This document shows, in pieces, positions 188-19,041 of a stretch of DNA of 35,571 nt. Within the stretch, counting starts at the first letter, position 1. Each line of letters begins with the position of its first letter. The DNA comes from Synergistaceae bacterium (GTDB lineage: Bacteria > Synergistota > Synergistia > Synergistales > Aminobacteriaceae). Below the pieces are notes generated by a model. That model was not told where the DNA came from. It searched no databases and saw only the letters and a program-made list of their open reading frames with translations. Made by a program: the position numbers and the translations under genes. The stretch is taken from contig JAISUL010000060.1 of assembly GCA_031272145.1 (NCBI GenBank), positions 1-35,571 of the forward strand, read 5' to 3'.

Positions 188-370
188 AATTAGCGTTTCG
201 GTGAACGGGAATCCGGAGCATCTTAGGGGAGCGCGGCAGCGCCCTCCGTGATGCACTAAGCCGGAGCGGCCCCGCCACTGTGATCGGGACGAAACCGCTT
301 TGTAGTCACTGCCCCTTGCCGGGCGGGAAGACGCGGGAGTAGGATGAACGAGAGCCAGGAGACCGGCCGA
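188..370 (+). promoter_or_regulatory. Cobalamin (B12) riboswitch
   Basis: The leader before tonB carries the ordered conserved elements of a cobalamin aptamer: the GGTGAACGGGAA-like segment near 199-211, the GCCACTGTGA core near 274-284, and the B12 box AGCCAGGAGACCGGCC at 353-368. The family binds adenosyl- or other cobalamins and normally represses B12 uptake or synthesis genes. Its position before a tonB/btuB operon agrees with this. The segment 371-430 has no clear hairpin plus T-run terminator. GCCGGTC at 399-405 is complementary to GACCGGC at 361-367 in the B12 box, which could form a switching helix, so control of translation is more likely than of transcription. Confidence 0.92.
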
Positions 371-473
371 AGCGACGTGTATTTTTGCGCGCGCGGGCGC
401 CGGTCGGTTCTTTCGTGAACCACCCCAGTCAGTGGAAACACCGCCCTCGCGCCGCACGAGGAGGGCGGAAACA

Positions 474-1154
474 ATGAGTAACAGTATACGATGGATTGCC
501 TCGCTGTCGGCAAGCGTTGTTCTTCACGCTGCCGTTTTGCTTTCCCTTTTCCCCCTTCTCTCGATGCCGCCCTTGCGCGACGCCGTCCCGCGCGGGACGA
601 ACCGTATGGCCGTGTCCATCATGTTCGCCGCGCCGGAGCGGGCAGCACCTGTCCAAGCACCTGTTCAAGCTGCGCCCGTTCAGGCTGCGCCTGTCAAGCC
701 CAGGCCTGCCCCTAATCCTGTCCCCAAATCTGCTCCCAAGCCCGTCACGAAGGCCGAGCCGGTTCCGAGAGCGCAGGAGCCCTCGTCTGAAGGCGGCCAT
801 GAGGCAGCTGCCCAGCCGCCCGCCGGTGCCATGCCAAATGCTGCGTCAGGCGCTGCCCGCGGTTCCGCCGCTGCGTCCGGCGTGAGGGAGCTATCCGAGC
901 TCGGCGCCGTCCAGAGGGTCAGGCCAGACTATCCGGTCATGTCGCGCAAAAGAAGGGAGGAAGGTACGGTTACGCTTCTGATAGCTCTGAGGGATGGCTC
1001 GGTCTCCGACGTGAAGATCGAGAGGAGCAGCGGGCACGCGGCACTGGACGAGGCGGCCGTGTCGGCGGTAAGGAAATGGCGCTTCACCGCCGTCGGGTCG
1101 CTTTACGCCCGTGTGCCTATAACGTTTCGGCTTAACGGCCGAGGGGGTATATAA
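474..1154 (+). CDS. tonB: TonB family energy transducer
   Basis: The 226-residue protein couples inner-membrane energy (ExbB/ExbD) to outer-membrane receptors. It has one membrane anchor at residues about 8-30, a Pro/Ala/Lys/Val-rich periplasmic linker with tandem APVQ units, and a C-terminal TonB domain with VRPDYPVMSRKRREEG and a following DGSVSDVKIERSSG. The ATG at 474 is chosen because GAGGAGGG at 458-465 precedes it at a good distance; an in-frame ATG at 432 lacks such a site and adds an unneeded N-terminus. It is the first gene after the riboswitch and is followed after 2 bases by the propeller gene, so it is probably dedicated to the BtuB-like receptor. exbB and exbD are not in the window. 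Confidence 0.9.
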   Translation: MSNSIRWIASLSASVVLHAAVLLSLFPLLSMPPLRDAVPRGTNRMAVSIMFAAPERAAPVQAPVQAAPVQAAPVKPRPAPNPVPKSAPKPVTKAEPVPRAQEPSSEGGHEAAAQPPAGAMPNAASGAARGSAAASGVRELSELGAVQRVRPDYPVMSRKRREEGTVTLLIALRDGSVSDVKIERSSGHAALDEAAVSAVRKWRFTAVGSLYARVPITFRLNGRGGI

Positions 1155-1156
1155 AT

Positions 1157-2395
1157 ATGAAGCTTTTTAGGCTTAGGCCTGGGAAAATGCTCGCCGTTGC
1201 GCTTGTGGTTGCGGCGCTGACCGGGACGGCGGGGGCGGACGTGATGTACACGACGTCGGACTACACGAACGGCGCGCTCGGCGCTATATCGCTGGCTAAG
1301 GTTGAGGCCAAACTCGTCGAGGGCTTCGCGCTACTAGGGGGGGACACAGCGCTGTTCTCGTTAGGCGAGGGTGATGCTGCCCGCGTCCTGTTGGTGGAGC
1401 ACAACATAACGGACGGTGACAGGGCGTACGTATTCAGTCCGTCGGAGCCGTCTGATGTGCTCTTTAACCCAGCTTGGAGCACCATCAACAACACCTACGA
1501 CGCGGCCATGCTGAACGGCAAGCTGTACGTAGCTGACAATGGGCTGTATGCTCCGGCGACGAATGGGCCTGTTGTGGAGGTTAACACGACCGACTATATG
1601 CCGACTAACACGTCGTATTCCTATACAGCCTCTGAAGGCAACACCTCCCACGCTGTAAAAGTCGCGGCCGTCGGCGACAGCCTCTACGCCCTCTTCACGC
1701 TGGCGAGCGGCGACTATCCATATGACTACGCGCAAAGCGTCATTATGAAGTTGAGCGCTAGCATGGAAGAACTCGGCAAAAAAGAGGTCGGCGAAAACGC
1801 CTCCGATATGGCTGGCATAGTGGCGGTGGGCGAGGACAAAATCGCCGTGGCCTACAACGGCGGCGCTCAGGAGTCGGGTAATGTCGGTGGGATCGACATC
1901 GTGACCTTCTCATCTGGAGGCATAAGCTCAGAACCACTAGAACTTCCCAGCAACGTAGGGGAGATAGCCGCCGTTTGCTACGACGGATCGAAACTCTACT
2001 TCATCGGCGTCAATTATGCCTCCTCCGAAAAGACGCTCTACTCGACGCCGGTAGACCATGATGCGCGCAATGTAGTAAGCGTAGACACGGTAGAGACGAC
2101 GAGCTACGTCCCTCCTCGGGTCGAGTATGACCCTTACAACAACGTTATCGTCGCCCTGATCGGGGACGAGATTCGGATATATGGAAGCGACGGTCACATC
2201 GATTTCGATAACAAAGACCTCGGCGGCTATCCCTACTCGATCGCCATAGTCCCGTCCTCCTCCACCCCCCAGCCCGGCGGCAGCAGCGGCGGGTGCGGCG
2301 TCTTTGGGGCGGCGGGGCTGCTTGCCCTGCTTGCTCCCTGGGTTTTACTTAGGCTCAGGCTCAGGCTCAGGCCCAGGCCCAGGAGGAGTGCTTAA
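1157..2395 (+). CDS. Exported beta-propeller-like protein with Synerg-CTERM tail, B12 operon
   Basis: 412 residues. A signal peptide (residues 1 to about 27, ending TGTAGA) leads into repeated short strands such as KLYVADNG, SLYALFT, KIAVAYNGG, KLYFIGVNY and NVIVALIGD, a spacing typical of WD/YncE-like beta-propellers. The C-terminus has a Ser/Pro/Gly linker, GGCGVFG at about 378, a hydrophobic stretch and an Arg-rich tail, matching the Synerg-CTERM sorting signal. The gene sits 2 bases after tonB and just before btuB behind a cobalamin riboswitch. I infer a surface cobalamin-capture protein comparable in role to Bacteroides BtuG, which is also a propeller partnered with BtuB, but anchored differently. 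Sequence homology to BtuG is not claimed. The propeller fold is inferred from strand pattern only. Confidence 0.75.
   Translation: MKLFRLRPGKMLAVALVVAALTGTAGADVMYTTSDYTNGALGAISLAKVEAKLVEGFALLGGDTALFSLGEGDAARVLLVEHNITDGDRAYVFSPSEPSDVLFNPAWSTINNTYDAAMLNGKLYVADNGLYAPATNGPVVEVNTTDYMPTNTSYSYTASEGNTSHAVKVAAVGDSLYALFTLASGDYPYDYAQSVIMKLSASMEELGKKEVGENASDMAGIVAVGEDKIAVAYNGGAQESGNVGGIDIVTFSSGGISSEPLELPSNVGEIAAVCYDGSKLYFIGVNYASSEKTLYSTPVDHDARNVVSVDTVETTSYVPPRVEYDPYNNVIVALIGDEIRIYGSDGHIDFDNKDLGGYPYSIAIVPSSSTPQPGGSSGGCGVFGAAGLLALLAPWVLLRLRLRLRPRPRRSA
2351..2380 (+). repeat. Hexanucleotide tandem repeat in the Synerg-CTERM tail
   Basis: Five 6-base units in a row, AGGCTC three times then AGGCCC twice, encode the alternating Leu-Arg and Pro-Arg tail. 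The following AGGAGGAG (2381-2388) is the ribosome-binding site of btuB. Unit gain or loss would keep the frame and change only tail length. Confidence 0.85.
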
Positions 2396-2397
2396 CA

Positions 2398-4473
2398 TTG
2401 CTATACTTCACCCGAACGAGGGTTTCCACCTCCTTATCTCTCGAACGGGATTTCATGCCCTTTCTAACGGGCCGGGGGGCTTTGTCTACCCCGGCCTCCT
2501 CTTTATTTGCCGCGATCGCAGCACTGGCCTTGCTCTTGTCGTTCACGCAGCCATGCCTGGCTGAGACGGTCGAGCTTGACGAGGAGGTCGTCTCGGCCTC
2601 GCGCATCGATGAGGATCGATACAGGTCGCCGGGCAGCGTCACGGTCGTGCACGCCGACGAGCTTGAGGGCGAGAACCGGTCTCTGCCGGATATGCTCGAA
2701 CATGTGCCGGGGCTGAACGTCATACGGCTGCGCGGGCGCGGGGCCTACACCGTGGCGTCGGTGCGCGGCAGCACCTCGGCTCAGGTGGCGGTCTACGTCG
2801 ACGGAGTGCTTCAAAACACCGGGAGCGACGCGGCTGTTGACCTCTCGGCCATACCTGCTGGCGAGGTCGAGCGAGTCGAGGTCTATCGGGGCTACATACC
2901 GGCTCGCTTCTCCGAGGCTGGCATGGGCGGAGTCATCAACGTCGTCACGCGCGCGCCCGAATCGGGGAAGGCTCGTACCAGCGTCAAGGCGGGGATCGGG
3001 TCGTTCGGCGAGGTCAGCTTCGGCGCGGCGGTCTCCGGCGGAACGGGAAAGGATAAAGACAAGGGAAAATTTCTCGCGGCTGTGAACCACGCGGGGACTC
3101 GCGGGGACTTCCCATATAGGAACGACAACGGCACGCCTTACAACACGGCAGACGACTACGACGCCGACAGGAAGAACAACGGGCGCGACATGACGGACGT
3201 GCTGCTCAAGTGGGAGGACGGCGGCTGGGCAGCGCGCCTGAACTGGAACAGGGACGACCGCGACCTGCCCCTGCCGGCGCCGGGGAACGATAAGCCGACG
3301 TCGCCAAGGGGGGCCGAGCTCGATACAGACAAGCTTGAGCTGTCCATCTCCAACTCGCGCCGCGCCGGGGCAGTCGACTGGGGCTGGAGCCTAGGATGGA
3401 TGCGGCGCAGCAGGGTCTACGACAACCCGGACGGAACTCTCGGAGGGCTGGGCGAGCGGCACAACGAGTACATCACCGAACGGCTCTCCGCCGCGCTGAA
3501 CGCGTCGTGGTCGCCAAGCGAGAGGCACTTCGTCGAGGTTCTGGCCGAGTGGAGCGGGGAGACGCTCGACGCGCGGGGCGACATAGTGGACATGTACCTC
3601 GGCACGCCGCGCTTCGACCAGAACGTATGGCGGGCGGTCGTGCAGGACTCAATAGCACTGACAAGGGACGGGAAGCTTATTCTTACCCCATCGGTGCGAT
3701 GGGATTCCTCTGACGGCGAGTCGAAAACGGCGTGGGCTGCGGCGCTGGAGTACCGGCCGTCGGAGCCGTGGCTCTTCTCGGCCACCTTTGGGAGCTACTC
3801 CCGCGCGCCGAACCTCTACGAGCGCTACGGCGACGGGGCGACGATCCGCCCGAACGCCGGACTGAAATGGGAGACTGGCCTCCAGTGGGACGCTAGGGCT
3901 GCCTGGCACGGAGCCGTGAAGAACGCGGACGTCAGCTTATCGCTGACGTACTTCGGGCGCAAGACGGACGACCTGATCGAGTTCATCATGACGAGCCCGC
4001 GCTACGGCATCTACGAGAACATAGCGAAGGCCTCCGTCAACGGCGTGGAGCTGGAGGGAACGGCGGTGAAGGGCCCGTGGAAGCTGTCGCTCTCCGCGAC
4101 CTGGATGAGCGCCCTGAACGAGACGCCGGACAGCTACCGCGAGGACAAGCGGCTGCCAAACGCGCCTCTGTGGGCTTGGACGGCGCGGGTGACCAGGGAG
4201 TTCAGCGCCAGGCTCTCCGCGTTCGTGGAGTGGCGGTTCGTCGGGGCCAACTACTTCGATCAGAACGAGCTGGTGCGCTACGACGACATGAGCCTGCTGA
4301 ACGTCGGGGTGAAGTGGACGAACGGGGACACAGACGTGGCGCTCGGCGTGAACGACCTTTTCAACGATGGGCCTGGCATAGGCCTGAAGACGACCCCCTC
4401 AGCACCAGAGCGCATGAACTGGTATCCGCTTGAGGGCCGCAGCTTTTACCTTACCGTGAGCAGGAAGTTTTGA
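2398..4473 (+). CDS. btuB: TonB-dependent outer-membrane cobalamin receptor (BtuB type)
   Basis: 691 residues from a TTG start. The protein has a signal peptide ending near QPCLAE, a TonB-box-like segment ETVELDEEVVSASR, a plug domain with PDMLEHVPGLNV, YVDGVLQN and VERVEVYRGYIPARF then GGVINVVT, and a long beta-barrel ending in the outer-membrane signature LTVSRKF with terminal Phe. The family imports cobalamin or iron complexes; the riboswitch in front makes cobalamin the likely cargo. The TTG at 2398 follows AGGAGGAG (2381-2388) at 9 bases, inside the end of the preceding gene, so translation is coupled. An in-frame ATG at 2455 would also keep a signal peptide but has only a weak ribosome site. 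Confidence 0.9.
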   Translation: MLYFTRTRVSTSLSLERDFMPFLTGRGALSTPASSLFAAIAALALLLSFTQPCLAETVELDEEVVSASRIDEDRYRSPGSVTVVHADELEGENRSLPDMLEHVPGLNVIRLRGRGAYTVASVRGSTSAQVAVYVDGVLQNTGSDAAVDLSAIPAGEVERVEVYRGYIPARFSEAGMGGVINVVTRAPESGKARTSVKAGIGSFGEVSFGAAVSGGTGKDKDKGKFLAAVNHAGTRGDFPYRNDNGTPYNTADDYDADRKNNGRDMTDVLLKWEDGGWAARLNWNRDDRDLPLPAPGNDKPTSPRGAELDTDKLELSISNSRRAGAVDWGWSLGWMRRSRVYDNPDGTLGGLGERHNEYITERLSAALNASWSPSERHFVEVLAEWSGETLDARGDIVDMYLGTPRFDQNVWRAVVQDSIALTRDGKLILTPSVRWDSSDGESKTAWAAALEYRPSEPWLFSATFGSYSRAPNLYERYGDGATIRPNAGLKWETGLQWDARAAWHGAVKNADVSLSLTYFGRKTDDLIEFIMTSPRYGIYENIAKASVNGVELEGTAVKGPWKLSLSATWMSALNETPDSYREDKRLPNAPLWAWTARVTREFSARLSAFVEWRFVGANYFDQNELVRYDDMSLLNVGVKWTNGDTDVALGVNDLFNDGPGIGLKTTPSAPERMNWYPLEGRSFYLTVSRKF

Positions 4474-14908: not shown

Positions 14909-15255
14909 GACGCGGGTTCACGCTCATGGAGGTGCTGGTGGCCGTGGTGATAGTCGGCATGACCGCCGCCGCGGGCTACGGTTTGATAGGCGTCTCTCTG
15001 CGCTCGCTTGCGGCAGCGGACGTGGAGCGGGAGCTCGTGCAGGAAGCCCAGCTGGTCTACATGGACTTCCTCACCAAGAGCGATATGCCGGACAAGGGGG
15101 AAAAACACGACTTGAAAGAGACCGATAACATGGTCAGATGGTCTACCGACCCGGATTCCATCCCAGTGGCGGAGGGCGCGGAGCTCACGTTCCGCACGCT
15201 GACCGTGGAGTACCGCGACCGCGAGATGACCCTGTACCTGCCGGACGTGAAATAA
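14905..15255 (+). CDS. Type II secretion pseudopilin (GspI/H-like)
   Basis: 116 residues with the type IV prepilin leader MRRG-FTLMEVLVAVVIVG: cleavage after Gly, Phe at +1 and Glu at +5, followed by one hydrophobic helix. Small size and place between gspC and gspD fit a minor pseudopilin, most like GspI. The major pseudopilin GspG with its calcium-loop region is not seen. It overlaps gspC by 4 bases, and gspD begins on its stop codon (TAATG). Confidence 0.85.
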   Translation: MRRGFTLMEVLVAVVIVGMTAAAGYGLIGVSLRSLAAADVERELVQEAQLVYMDFLTKSDMPDKGEKHDLKETDNMVRWSTDPDSIPVAEGAELTFRTLTVEYRDREMTLYLPDVK

Positions 15256-17408
15256 TGGCGGGCCGGGGACTCACTCTCTTGCCGCGGGCTCTGCTTTTTG
15301 CCTTGTGCCTCGTGATGGCAGGCATGGTCGTGCTGAGCGAGCCGGCTGACGCCGCCACCAGACGGAGCACGCGCAGGGCCGAGGCCAAAAAAGCCGAGCC
15401 GCCCGCCACCACGTCGTGGGACGTCACGCCGGACGACGACGGCTGGTTCGCGGCCGTGTCCCAGTCCTCCGACAAAAAAACCACCGCCGCCACTGATGAC
15501 GCCGCCACCGCCGAAAAGGCCGAGCAGGACGAGCGCACTCTCATCAACGCCGCGCGCATGATGCGGCGAGCCGGCATGGTTCAGTTCAACTTCACGGAGA
15601 TGGAACTGCCGAAGTTCATACGCTTCATGTCGGAGCTCTTTCAGGAAACAATCGTGCTCCCGCCGAACATAAACGGCAAGATAACGATCATATCCCCGAA
15701 GGCCTGCACCCTTCCCGAGGCGAGGCGGATAATCGTCTCTGTCCTGCAGACCAACGGGTTCTCCATACAGGACATGGGGGACTACAGCAAGGTCGTCCAG
15801 GGCGGGAACAGCGTCGACCCCAACGTGTACAAGGGCCGCGGCGGCCCAGGCTCCGGCGAGGAGACCACGACGTACATAATCCCGCTCAGCTACATAGTGG
15901 CGGACTACATCGTGCAGGCTATGCAGCAGGCCTTCGGGCAGAGCGTGATGGTCATCCCGCTGACGACCGGGCGCGACGTGCTGCTTCAGGGGCGATCCAC
16001 TGACGTGAACAAGGCCGTGGAGTTCATACGCGAGCTCGACGTGCCGGCCACTGCCCGCGTCCACCGCACGCTCAAGCTCAAGTTCGGCGACCCGACCATC
16101 ATAGCCAACCAGGTGAACGCCGCCGCTCAGGCCAGCGCCCCGCTGCGCGGCGTGGTCGCCATACCGGACGCGACGACCAAGCAGGTCATAGTCATAGGCG
16201 AGGAAAAGGTCATCGCGTCGGCCTCCAAACTGGTGGCAGACCTCGACCTCGACACCAAGACCGGCGACTTTCATATATACAAGCTCAAGAACATCGACGC
16301 CACAGTCGCGGCGGAGCAGGTCGGGAAGGTGCTCGCCGCCGCCGCCATGCTCCAGCCGAACAAAGAAGGCCAGTTCACCCCGACGGTCGTGCCTGACCTG
16401 ACCACGAACAGCCTGATATTCGCCGCGACCCAGATTCAGTACGACGCGCTCAAGAAGATCCTAGACGAGATAGACATCCTGCCCAAGCAGGTGCTCATAC
16501 GCGGCTTCCTGGCGGAGGTCAACGTCACGAACCTGAACAAGGCCGGCATAGACTGGTCGATCCTTGGCGGCCAGATGTGGGATAACTTCCTGCTCGGCGC
16601 CCAGGGCACGCTCGGCGAGAGCGGCATACCGGAGCAGTTCATAAGCTGGTTCAACAACCTGTCGCAGACCCAGGTCGCGGCGCAGTATGACCCTGTTACC
16701 GGACGCATCACTCAGGAGGGCTACACGACCTACCGGCCTCTTGCCCTCGCCTACTTGACGATCGAGATGCTGAAGAAGTACGACGCCGTGAACATCCTCT
16801 CCATGCCGCGCCTGATGTGCACGGACAACAAGGAGAGCTCGTTTCAGGTCGGGCAGGTCGTCCCGACCCTGTCCGGCACGACCGCCGACACGACCAACCC
16901 GAGCTCCGTGCAGAACAGCTACAACTACAAGGACCTGGGCCTGACTCTGACTGTCACGCCCCACATACGCAACGACGACGTCATAGCGATGGACATTGAG
17001 CAGACGACCGAGGAGCTGCTCACAGCCATAGGCAACGTTACGCCTGTGACGGCCAAGCGCCAGGTCAAGACCTCCGTGGTGGTCAAGGACGGGGAGACGA
17101 TCGTGCTCGGCGGCATGGTCAAGGAGGTCGAGAGGTCGCTGAAGCGCCGCGTGCCGGGACTGTCATTCATACCGCTCATCGGCGGCCTGTTCCAGAAGGT
17201 CGAGAAGGACAGGGAGAAGGTGGACTTCATAATCTTCCTGACGCCTCAGATAGTCCGCAACGCCGAGGATTCCCGCGCCGTCACCGAGGAGGCGGCGATG
17301 TCCGACAGCACCCGCTTCGGCGTGGACAAGTCCGAGCTGAGCCCGGAGGAGCTGGAAGTCGACAGGCGCTTCCGAGAGCTCTACCGCCGGAGCGCCAAAA
17401 CACAGTAG
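15255..17408 (+). CDS. gspD: Type II secretion secretin GspD
   Basis: 717 residues from the ATG at 15255, which overlaps the previous stop by one base and opens a signal peptide (LLPRALLFALCLVMAGMVVL). An Ala/Glu/Lys/Thr-rich spacer leads to an N0-like domain (VQFNFTEMELPKFIRFMSEL), ring-building N domains (YIIPLSYIVADYIVQAMQ; HIYKLKNIDATVAAEQVGKVL) and the secretin domain from about residue 420 to 655, with VGQVVPTLSG and VPGLSFIPLIGGLFQ. It forms the outer-membrane channel. The frame stays open upstream to 15138, but that stretch has no signal peptide and runs through the prepilin gene. No GspS pilotin is seen. Confidence 0.93.
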   Translation: MAGRGLTLLPRALLFALCLVMAGMVVLSEPADAATRRSTRRAEAKKAEPPATTSWDVTPDDDGWFAAVSQSSDKKTTAATDDAATAEKAEQDERTLINAARMMRRAGMVQFNFTEMELPKFIRFMSELFQETIVLPPNINGKITIISPKACTLPEARRIIVSVLQTNGFSIQDMGDYSKVVQGGNSVDPNVYKGRGGPGSGEETTTYIIPLSYIVADYIVQAMQQAFGQSVMVIPLTTGRDVLLQGRSTDVNKAVEFIRELDVPATARVHRTLKLKFGDPTIIANQVNAAAQASAPLRGVVAIPDATTKQVIVIGEEKVIASASKLVADLDLDTKTGDFHIYKLKNIDATVAAEQVGKVLAAAAMLQPNKEGQFTPTVVPDLTTNSLIFAATQIQYDALKKILDEIDILPKQVLIRGFLAEVNVTNLNKAGIDWSILGGQMWDNFLLGAQGTLGESGIPEQFISWFNNLSQTQVAAQYDPVTGRITQEGYTTYRPLALAYLTIEMLKKYDAVNILSMPRLMCTDNKESSFQVGQVVPTLSGTTADTTNPSSVQNSYNYKDLGLTLTVTPHIRNDDVIAMDIEQTTEELLTAIGNVTPVTAKRQVKTSVVVKDGETIVLGGMVKEVERSLKRRVPGLSFIPLIGGLFQKVEKDREKVDFIIFLTPQIVRNAEDSRAVTEEAAMSDSTRFGVDKSELSPEELEVDRRFRELYRRSAKTQ

Positions 17409-17424: not shown

Positions 17425-19041
17425 ATGGAAGCAGTTGACCTTACTAAACCTGACGAAGCAGGCCTAACGGCAGACGCAGCAGGCGGACATAATCCGGCGT
17501 TTGGCTCGCCGACCATGGGTGCGTTCGACTCGGCGCTCGCCGTCCTCAACGACCCGTTTTCCCACCACCCCCTGCCCGAGGCCAAGGAAATATCCGAGCT
17601 CCTGCCGGAGGCCATGGGGCTCGACGTGCTGCGCCTGTCGAAGATGCTCCCCCTGAGGATCGAGGACGGAGTGCTGGTCATCGGGTCTCCCTCGGTTGAA
17701 GCGTATCCGAGGGCGCAGATGCTTGGCGCGGCTCTGGGCTACCCTATATCGCTCGAGCTCCACTCGGACAAGGACATCTCCGAGCTGCTTCACACTCTAT
17801 ACGACATACGGAGCGTCGCTGCGGACGAGGCGGTCAAGAACATGGAGGGCATAGAGGACATCGACGACCTCAGCCGCGAGGACGTGCTGAGCGACTCGGT
17901 GGACGTGCCGGTCATAAGGCTGGTGAACGGCCTCTTCGTTGACGCCCTGAAGCAGCGCGCGACTGACATCCACGTCGAGCCATACGAGAACGAGGTGCTG
18001 ATACGCTTCCGCGTGGACGGGGTCTTGCAGGACAGGCTGCGCCTGCCCCGCACGCACCAGGCGCCCCTCACCAGCCGCATCAAGGTCATGGCCAAGATGG
18101 ACATAGCCGAGCACATGGCCCCTCAGGACGGGCGCATCGGCATAACCTTGGGCGATCAGGCGGTGGACATCCGCGTCGGCCTAGTCCCGACCCAGTACGG
18201 CGAGAGAATAGCCATGCGAATGCTGGATAAGGGGCACGGCCTCCTGACCCTCACCGACCTCGGCATGGAGGCGCACGAGCGCGAGGTCATGGACGGCCTC
18301 ATAAACAGGCCTCACGGGATGATACTCTTCACGGGCCCGACCGGATCAGGGAAAACCACGAGCCTCTACGCCATCCTTCAGGCGCTGGCGAAGCCCCAGG
18401 TGAATATAATCACTGTGGAGGACCCCATCGAGTACTCGCTACCCGGCGTGGGGCAGATACAGGTCAACGAGAAGGCGGGCGTGACGTTTGCGTCTGCCCT
18501 GCGCTCGATTCTGCGCCAAGACCCGGACATAGTGATGATCGGAGAGATGCGCGACTTCGAGACGGCGCACATCGGGGTTCAGGCGTCGCTGACGGGGCAC
18601 CTCGTGCTGTCGACGCTCCACACGAACGACTCGATAGGTGCGCTGATGCGTCTGGTGGACATGGGCGTGGAGCCGTACCTTGCCGCCGGCTGCATAATCG
18701 GCACTGTGGCCCAGCGCCTGGCGCGCCGCCTCTGCCCTGCCTGCCGCAAACAGGTCGCCGTCCCCCCGTCGATGGCGCGCTTCGGAGTGCAAAGCGCCTG
18801 GGAGCCCGTCGGCTGCCCGAAGTGCAACAACACCGGCTTCCACGGCCGGGTCGGCCTCTACGAGCAGTTCGTCGTGACGGAGAAGATTCAGGAGGCCGTC
18901 ATAGCCGGAGCCGCCGCGTCGAAGCTAAGGGAGATAGCCAGAGAGAACGGCTTCAAGACCCTGTGGGAGATCGGCCTCGACGCGGTGAGCACGGGCAAGA
19001 CCTCGCCGGACGAGCTGATACGGGTGGCAGGGGAGGAGTAA
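17425..19041 (+). CDS. gspE: Type II secretion ATPase GspE
   Basis: 538 residues. A GspE N-terminal domain is followed by the GspII/PilB ATPase core: ATDIHVEPYE and RFRVDGVL, Walker A GPTGSGKTTS near residue 303, VEDPIEYSLPGVGQIQVN (Asp box), Walker B region DPDIVMIGEMRD near 368 (usual family form GEIRD) and the His box STLHTNDS. The zinc-binding domain has CPAC near 436 and CPKC near 463. It powers pseudopilus assembly. GspF, GspG and the other platform proteins do not follow; instead a forward promoter and converging reverse-strand genes begin within 30 bases. Confidence 0.93.
   Translation: MEAVDLTKPDEAGLTADAAGGHNPAFGSPTMGAFDSALAVLNDPFSHHPLPEAKEISELLPEAMGLDVLRLSKMLPLRIEDGVLVIGSPSVEAYPRAQMLGAALGYPISLELHSDKDISELLHTLYDIRSVAADEAVKNMEGIEDIDDLSREDVLSDSVDVPVIRLVNGLFVDALKQRATDIHVEPYENEVLIRFRVDGVLQDRLRLPRTHQAPLTSRIKVMAKMDIAEHMAPQDGRIGITLGDQAVDIRVGLVPTQYGERIAMRMLDKGHGLLTLTDLGMEAHEREVMDGLINRPHGMILFTGPTGSGKTTSLYAILQALAKPQVNIITVEDPIEYSLPGVGQIQVNEKAGVTFASALRSILRQDPDIVMIGEMRDFETAHIGVQASLTGHLVLSTLHTNDSIGALMRLVDMGVEPYLAAGCIIGTVAQRLARRLCPACRKQVAVPPSMARFGVQSAWEPVGCPKCNNTGFHGRVGLYEQFVVTEKIQEAVIAGAAASKLREIARENGFKTLWEIGLDAVSTGKTSPDELIRVAGEE

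Follow-up and report, generated by a model that had tools for sequence, protein, structure and literature searches.

A predicted, divergent BtuG-like beta-propeller encoded beside btuB in a riboswitch-associated operon of Synergistota

Introduction

The surface protein BtuG has been described as exclusive to Bacteroidetes, and BlastP searches at a threshold of 1e-10 detected none outside this phylum in human gut genomes (eLife 2018, PMC6143338). As BlastP at 1e-10 could not see an identity of 12–15%, this earlier search was blind to propellers as divergent as those described below. In our literature search for BtuG, or for BtuB and B12, in Synergistetes/Synergistota, no title or abstract described such a system.

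In this study, a contig of 35,571 nucleotides from a Synergistaceae bacterium (hereafter, the window) was analyzed. Near its start it carries what is most likely a B12 (cobamide) uptake operon, in which a surface propeller, a probable divergent homologue of BtuG, would bind cobamide and pass it to BtuB. The features considered here are as follows (all lie on the forward strand of the window, except the last, which is given by its own locus):

149–177, promoter-like site, sigma-70-like (TTGACA-17-TATCAT)
182–385, cobalamin riboswitch (RF00174)
474–1154, tonB, energy-coupling protein
1157–2395, BtuG-like secreted beta-propeller of 412 aa (AlphaFold2 model, Foldseek, family profile)
2282–2392, Synerg-CTERM-like sorting tail of the propeller (TIGR04564, sub-threshold here)
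2398–4473, BtuB-type TonB-dependent receptor
15138–17408, GspD-type secretin, candidate export machinery outside the operon
17425–19041, GspE/PilB-type secretion ATPase
1249–1800 of locus L148 (genome G000, contig C75), MrtS; no other Rce1-like protein was found in this genome

Organization of the operon

The riboswitch matches RF00174 over its full length (1–189 of 189) with 96 bits (E=6e-23), against a gathering score of 31.5, and it is the sole cobalamin riboswitch found in the source genome. Plain RNA folding over the same region was uninformative (z of -1.4) and therefore the call rests on the covariance model. Just upstream lies the promoter-like site, a consensus match only (11 of 12 positions, with a TG before the -10 element); two sigma-70-like sites were counted in the promoter region versus 0.7 in shuffled sequences.

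Downstream of the riboswitch, the genes for TonB, the propeller and the receptor follow one another almost without gaps. The tonB gene (PF03544, 3.3e-15; TIGR01352, 65.3 bits) starts at the ATG at 474 or the GTG at 432, and the propeller gene begins directly after its stop codon. The propeller protein comprises a signal peptide (residues about 1–27), the propeller itself (about 28–366), a linker and the C-terminal sorting tail. The receptor, starting at TTG 2398 or ATG 2455, has Plug (PF07715, 4e-20) and barrel (PF00593, 1e-33) domains and a TonB-box-like EEVVSASR after the signal peptide. Thus, the order read in the initial annotation (cobalamin riboswitch, tonB, propeller-like protein, btuB) is borne out by RF00174, the domain matches and the open reading frames, and its coordinates were correct within a few bases.

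The best NCBIfam model for the receptor is TIGR01779 (TonB-B12), with 142 bits, which is below the equivalog cut-off of 599.7; given this score, the receptor is named BtuB-like because of the riboswitch and the context. A BtuF-BtuD-BtuC-like set is present on another contig of the source genome (the FecCD permease is a Pfam match, the other two genes were read from sequence). In relatives, the btuB-propeller units also include a Peripla_BP_2 protein, a FecCD permease, an ABC ATPase and ExbB and/or ExbD.

Predicted fold of the propeller and its relation to BtuG

A Pfam search assigned the window propeller to no family, its homologues gave only weak, unspecific Pfam matches, and single-sequence phmmer against PDB sequences returned zero matches with the window protein, so that profiles were needed. 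The AlphaFold2 (AF2) model, built from an alignment of 17 family members, is all-beta and propeller-like (mean pLDDT 84.9, pTM 0.81). When it was compared with 350,542 PDB chains using Foldseek, BtuG3 (8okv) and BtuG2 (8bmy) ranked first and second (TMt of 0.68 and 0.69, respectively), in agreement with the propeller-like fold proposed in the initial annotation; the number of blades (seven) is taken from this BtuG match. As the lead of BtuG over other propellers was modest, the fold test was repeated with a distant homologue, the lipoprotein L119 from another Synergistota order (AF2 pLDDT 92.8, pTM 0.88). In this case, BtuG entries filled ranks 1–14 (E as low as 9e-14, TMt reaching 0.80), followed by an archaeal YVTN propeller (4e-11) and, further down, by E. 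coli YncE. According to these models, the nearest solved structures of the window propeller are the B12-binding BtuG proteins of Bacteroides, to which the modelled propellers are 12–15% identical.

Sequence profiles gave a similar picture. A profile of 40 btuB-linked members (A3) found 8ptf/8ptd as its best match among PDB sequences (E=1.9e-9), entries whose PDB titles name BtuG with cyanocobalamin, and then 8blw_B (E=2.5e-6), which belongs to the BtuB1G1 complex (PMC10404256). The best aligned stretch to BtuG was short (about 80 residues). When the profile was built from just the four lipoprotein forms, it missed BtuG among PDB sequences and gave a weak match to another propeller protein and chance matches to ribosomal S4, although by fold L119 does lead to BtuG. 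Homology between the window-type and lipoprotein-type propellers extends along the entire domain (hhalign 99.5%, 339 columns), and an HMM built only from the 17-sequence alignment A1 matches the lipoprotein form at an E of about 1e-20. The family and BtuG have in common GxNA and a YV..GG motif, a comparison made by motif, as the published list of BtuG ligand residues is partial. Net charge was also considered as a distinguishing property and was set aside: the window protein is acidic (-30), but the copies unlinked to btuB are acidic too, and charge does not discriminate between them.

The initial annotation went on to suggest that a different phylum had reached the same capture design independently. 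This would mean that an unrelated propeller was recruited beside BtuB and that its likeness to BtuG is the general likeness of seven-bladed propellers, and it would suit both the low identity (12–15%) and the fact that beta-propellers are common, kelch and designed propellers matching the family profile as well. Nevertheless, among natural PDB chains BtuG gives the best match to the sequence profile, BtuG holds the first 14 fold ranks for the better model (L119), ahead of YncE and other propellers, and the lipoprotein form of one family (f11) is, like BtuG, N-terminally lipid-anchored. Such a recruitment therefore appears unlikely. BtuG comes out on top of the PDB by fold and by sequence profile alike. 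Shared ancestry is accordingly the more parsimonious interpretation and better supported than an independent origin, and a BtuG-type B12-capture device probably exists in Synergistota too.

Conservation of the btuB neighbourhood in Synergistota

The initial annotation had named homologues lying mostly away from btuB and cobalamin riboswitches as evidence that would count against it. The linkage between propeller and receptor genes was surveyed with the receptor, not the propeller, as the query, to avoid bias. This BtuB-only search gave 78 receptor matches in 60 of 188 genomes; 76 receptor genes were tallied with their flanks, and eight of them run into contig ends, leaving 68. A propeller gene was found within 400 bp and on the same strand at 63 of these 68 receptors. 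The propeller is a near-fixed neighbour of btuB across Synergistota, and the initial annotation withstands this check. Among the five exceptions, L097 and L100 have a truncated propeller tail at a contig end, and L129 has a propeller 1.1 kb away. A cobalamin riboswitch precedes 55 of the 78 receptors (within 7 kb upstream, same strand), and many of the others are at contig ends. A locus search with five family sequences gave four contigs, assigned to Synergistales or Synergistaceae.

These data bear on the ligand. It could be argued that the receptor and the propeller form a pair for another compound, like XusA-XusB for siderophores, with the riboswitch being incidental, since XusB too is a propeller with seven blades that partners a TonB-dependent transporter (PMC13142918) and the receptor of the window scores under the strict BtuB cut-off. 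However, cobalamin riboswitches precede most such loci across many genera, the receptor is matched best in NCBIfam by the B12 receptor family, and XusB is absent among the 50 listed structural matches, which makes a ligand other than B12 very improbable.

The genome G157 has at least four propeller genes (L048, L061, L063 and L065). One of them adjoins a BtuB-like receptor, and the remaining ones sit on short contigs or at the end of a contig. Further large Synerg-CTERM proteins adjoin btuB-propeller loci in L060 (4734–8069), L107 (9093–10457), L110 (9279–10415), L130 (9510–13085), L133 (7541–9988), L139 (2773–4833) and L143 (6897–11345). These were considered as B12 binders, but no DUF4465/BtuH domains were found in them; their domains are Ig-like, beta-helix, GLUG, InlB-type and similar repeats.

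Propellers encoded away from btuB

Of 102 surveyed propeller genes, 34 have no adjoining BtuB, a fraction that is not unbiased, as the survey pools loci found via the propeller and via BtuB. In a maximum-likelihood tree, 27 of these 34 fall into one supported group, mostly from the genus g11, whose listed genomes are without BtuB and mostly without a cobalamin riboswitch. The window protein, a basal branch of this group, nevertheless retains the motifs and the linkage to btuB. Two diverged g11 propellers, L050 (4317–5465) and L052 (6349–7461), have Synerg-CTERM-like tails and lie near a TolC-like gene.

Six residues (N112, Y124, Y191, G212, N214 and G235) are conserved in the linked copies and mostly lost in the unlinked clade; of the four distant lipoprotein forms, at least three keep the same six. 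Judging from the alignments, this pattern fits a constraint that is tied to BtuB and relaxed away from btuB. It also touches on whether the propeller might serve BtuB without binding B12, as a structural lid or an assembly partner. Neither linkage nor fold is proof that a ligand is bound, but the top-ranked structures that have been characterised belong to BtuG proteins that bind B12, and the motif residues persist where the propeller is linked to btuB and are mostly gone from the unlinked clade; we regard a non-binding lid as quite unlikely and cobamide binding as the preferred reading.

Anchoring and export of the propeller

The initial annotation described the propeller as bearing a Synerg-CTERM tail instead of a lipid anchor, and the first part of this description holds for the tripartite layout of the tail. 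The window protein itself scores 12.8 bits against TIGR04564, below the cut-off of 22.5, whereas proteins of related genomes exceed this cut-off, and 14 of 17 family members match the model (best 2e-9). Its tail is tripartite, with GGSSGGC ending in the cysteine C380 (invariant in 17 of 17 sequences of alignment A1), a hydrophobic helix and an R-rich end; in most members the protein closes with a Gly/Ser-rich stretch, the cysteine (conserved in 98% of linked tail-bearing copies), a hydrophobic helix and basic residues. MrtS (NF040589), the predicted Synerg-CTERM protease, is encoded in the source genome (235.6 bits, cut-off 130), and thus the Gly/Ser-rich motif, invariant cysteine, hydrophobic helix, Arg-rich end and protease are all present. 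Of 11 tail-bearing genomes tested, 10 have an MrtS above the cut-off; the remaining one, G018, is 81% complete.

The second part of the description is doubtful. In Myxococcus, lipidation of the tail cysteine has been predicted, the tail is cut off by the myxosortase MrtX, and delivery to the surface is the task of the type II secretion system (T2SS; PMC11980579). Given this predicted lipidation, the contrast with a lipid anchor drawn in the initial annotation may be mistaken, and by analogy the Synerg-CTERM tail of the propeller may itself be a C-terminal lipid anchor. The window protein has no lipobox cysteine, and it is not classified as a canonical BtuG because it is without the N-terminal lipobox and the Bacteroidetes LES (lipoprotein export signal).

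The window also encodes the GspD-type secretin (PF00263, 1.5e-42; GspD N0, 8.5e-14; 343.7 bits against TIGR02517, cut-off 351) and the GspE/PilB-type ATPase (PF00437, 5e-129); this pair of type II secretion genes lies about 11 kb downstream of the operon. An anchor in the inner membrane, or a periplasmic location, would be an alternative to the surface, given that surface display is transferred from MYXO-CTERM (PMC11980579) and that experiments on Synerg-CTERM processing or export were not found. With MrtS above its cut-off in 10 of 11 tail-bearing genomes and GspD/E in the window, we hold such a placement to be decidedly unlikely and prefer the surface.

A second form is found in the family f11 (L119, L120, L121 and L123), in which the propeller beside btuB has an N-terminal lipobox (LWGC) and no tail. 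The units around it also include exbB, btuF, exbD, tonB and btuC-like genes, the domains of which were checked in L119, and MrtS-like proteins in f11 genomes are at most sub-threshold. Hence, as predicted from these signals, one phylum has one propeller with two anchors, an N-terminal lipoprotein form (f11) and a C-terminal cysteine tail. A propeller has its two termini side by side, so that with either anchor the lid could keep its hinge on BtuB, which would make a swap of anchors easy. One idea, on which we are evenly divided, is that BtuG has long accompanied BtuB in several phyla and is not a Bacteroidetes invention, and that Synergistota kept the lid and changed the anchor.

Proposed uptake pathway

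Taken as a whole, the operon probably works in the following way, in which cobamide binding, the complex with BtuB, surface exposure, lipidation and the order of events are what we infer, while the gene order, the riboswitch, the predicted fold with its BtuG ranking, the conserved linkage and the MrtS and GspD/E genes are what the data show. At low intracellular cobamide, the riboswitch would permit expression of tonB, the propeller and btuB, as its class suggests. The propeller would be exported and held at the surface by its C-terminal tail, with MrtS acting on the cysteine-containing Synerg-CTERM and the T2SS acting afterwards, by analogy with MYXO-CTERM. Sitting as a lid on BtuB, it would bind cobamide and hand it to the receptor, TonB would power entry, and the BtuF-BtuD-BtuC-like set encoded on the other contig would move cobamide across the inner membrane.

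If this is true, propeller-lidded B12 capture is more widespread than described, which bears on competition for B12 in the gut and in other anaerobic communities. A single phylum with both anchoring forms would constitute a natural experiment on the role of the anchor, and the propeller would give the Synerg-CTERM/MrtS sorting pathway a defined cargo with which it could be tested.

Comparison with known systems

The E. coli BtuB-BtuCDF system likewise consists of a BtuB-type receptor with separate BtuF, BtuC and BtuD-like genes, and E. coli BtuB is not known to have a propeller partner. The XusA-XusB system of Bacteroides also combines a TonB-dependent receptor with a seven-bladed surface propeller (PMC13142918), but its ligand is a siderophore, and XusB was not among the listed structural matches of the propeller studied here. 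With MYXO-CTERM/myxosortase (TraA, MrtX) are shared the tripartite tail, the invariant cysteine, a protease of the CPBP family (here MrtS) and T2SS genes, although Synerg-CTERM and MrtS are a separate predicted pair. The closest system is BtuG1/2/3-BtuB of Bacteroides thetaiotaomicron, in which a propeller that binds cobalamin very tightly and forms a complex with BtuB is likewise encoded beside btuB under a cobalamin riboswitch and which provides the best PDB fold match and the best natural profile match; the Synergistota propellers differ from it in being only 12–15% identical and, in most families, in having a C-terminal sorting tail where BtuG has an N-terminal lipobox and LES.
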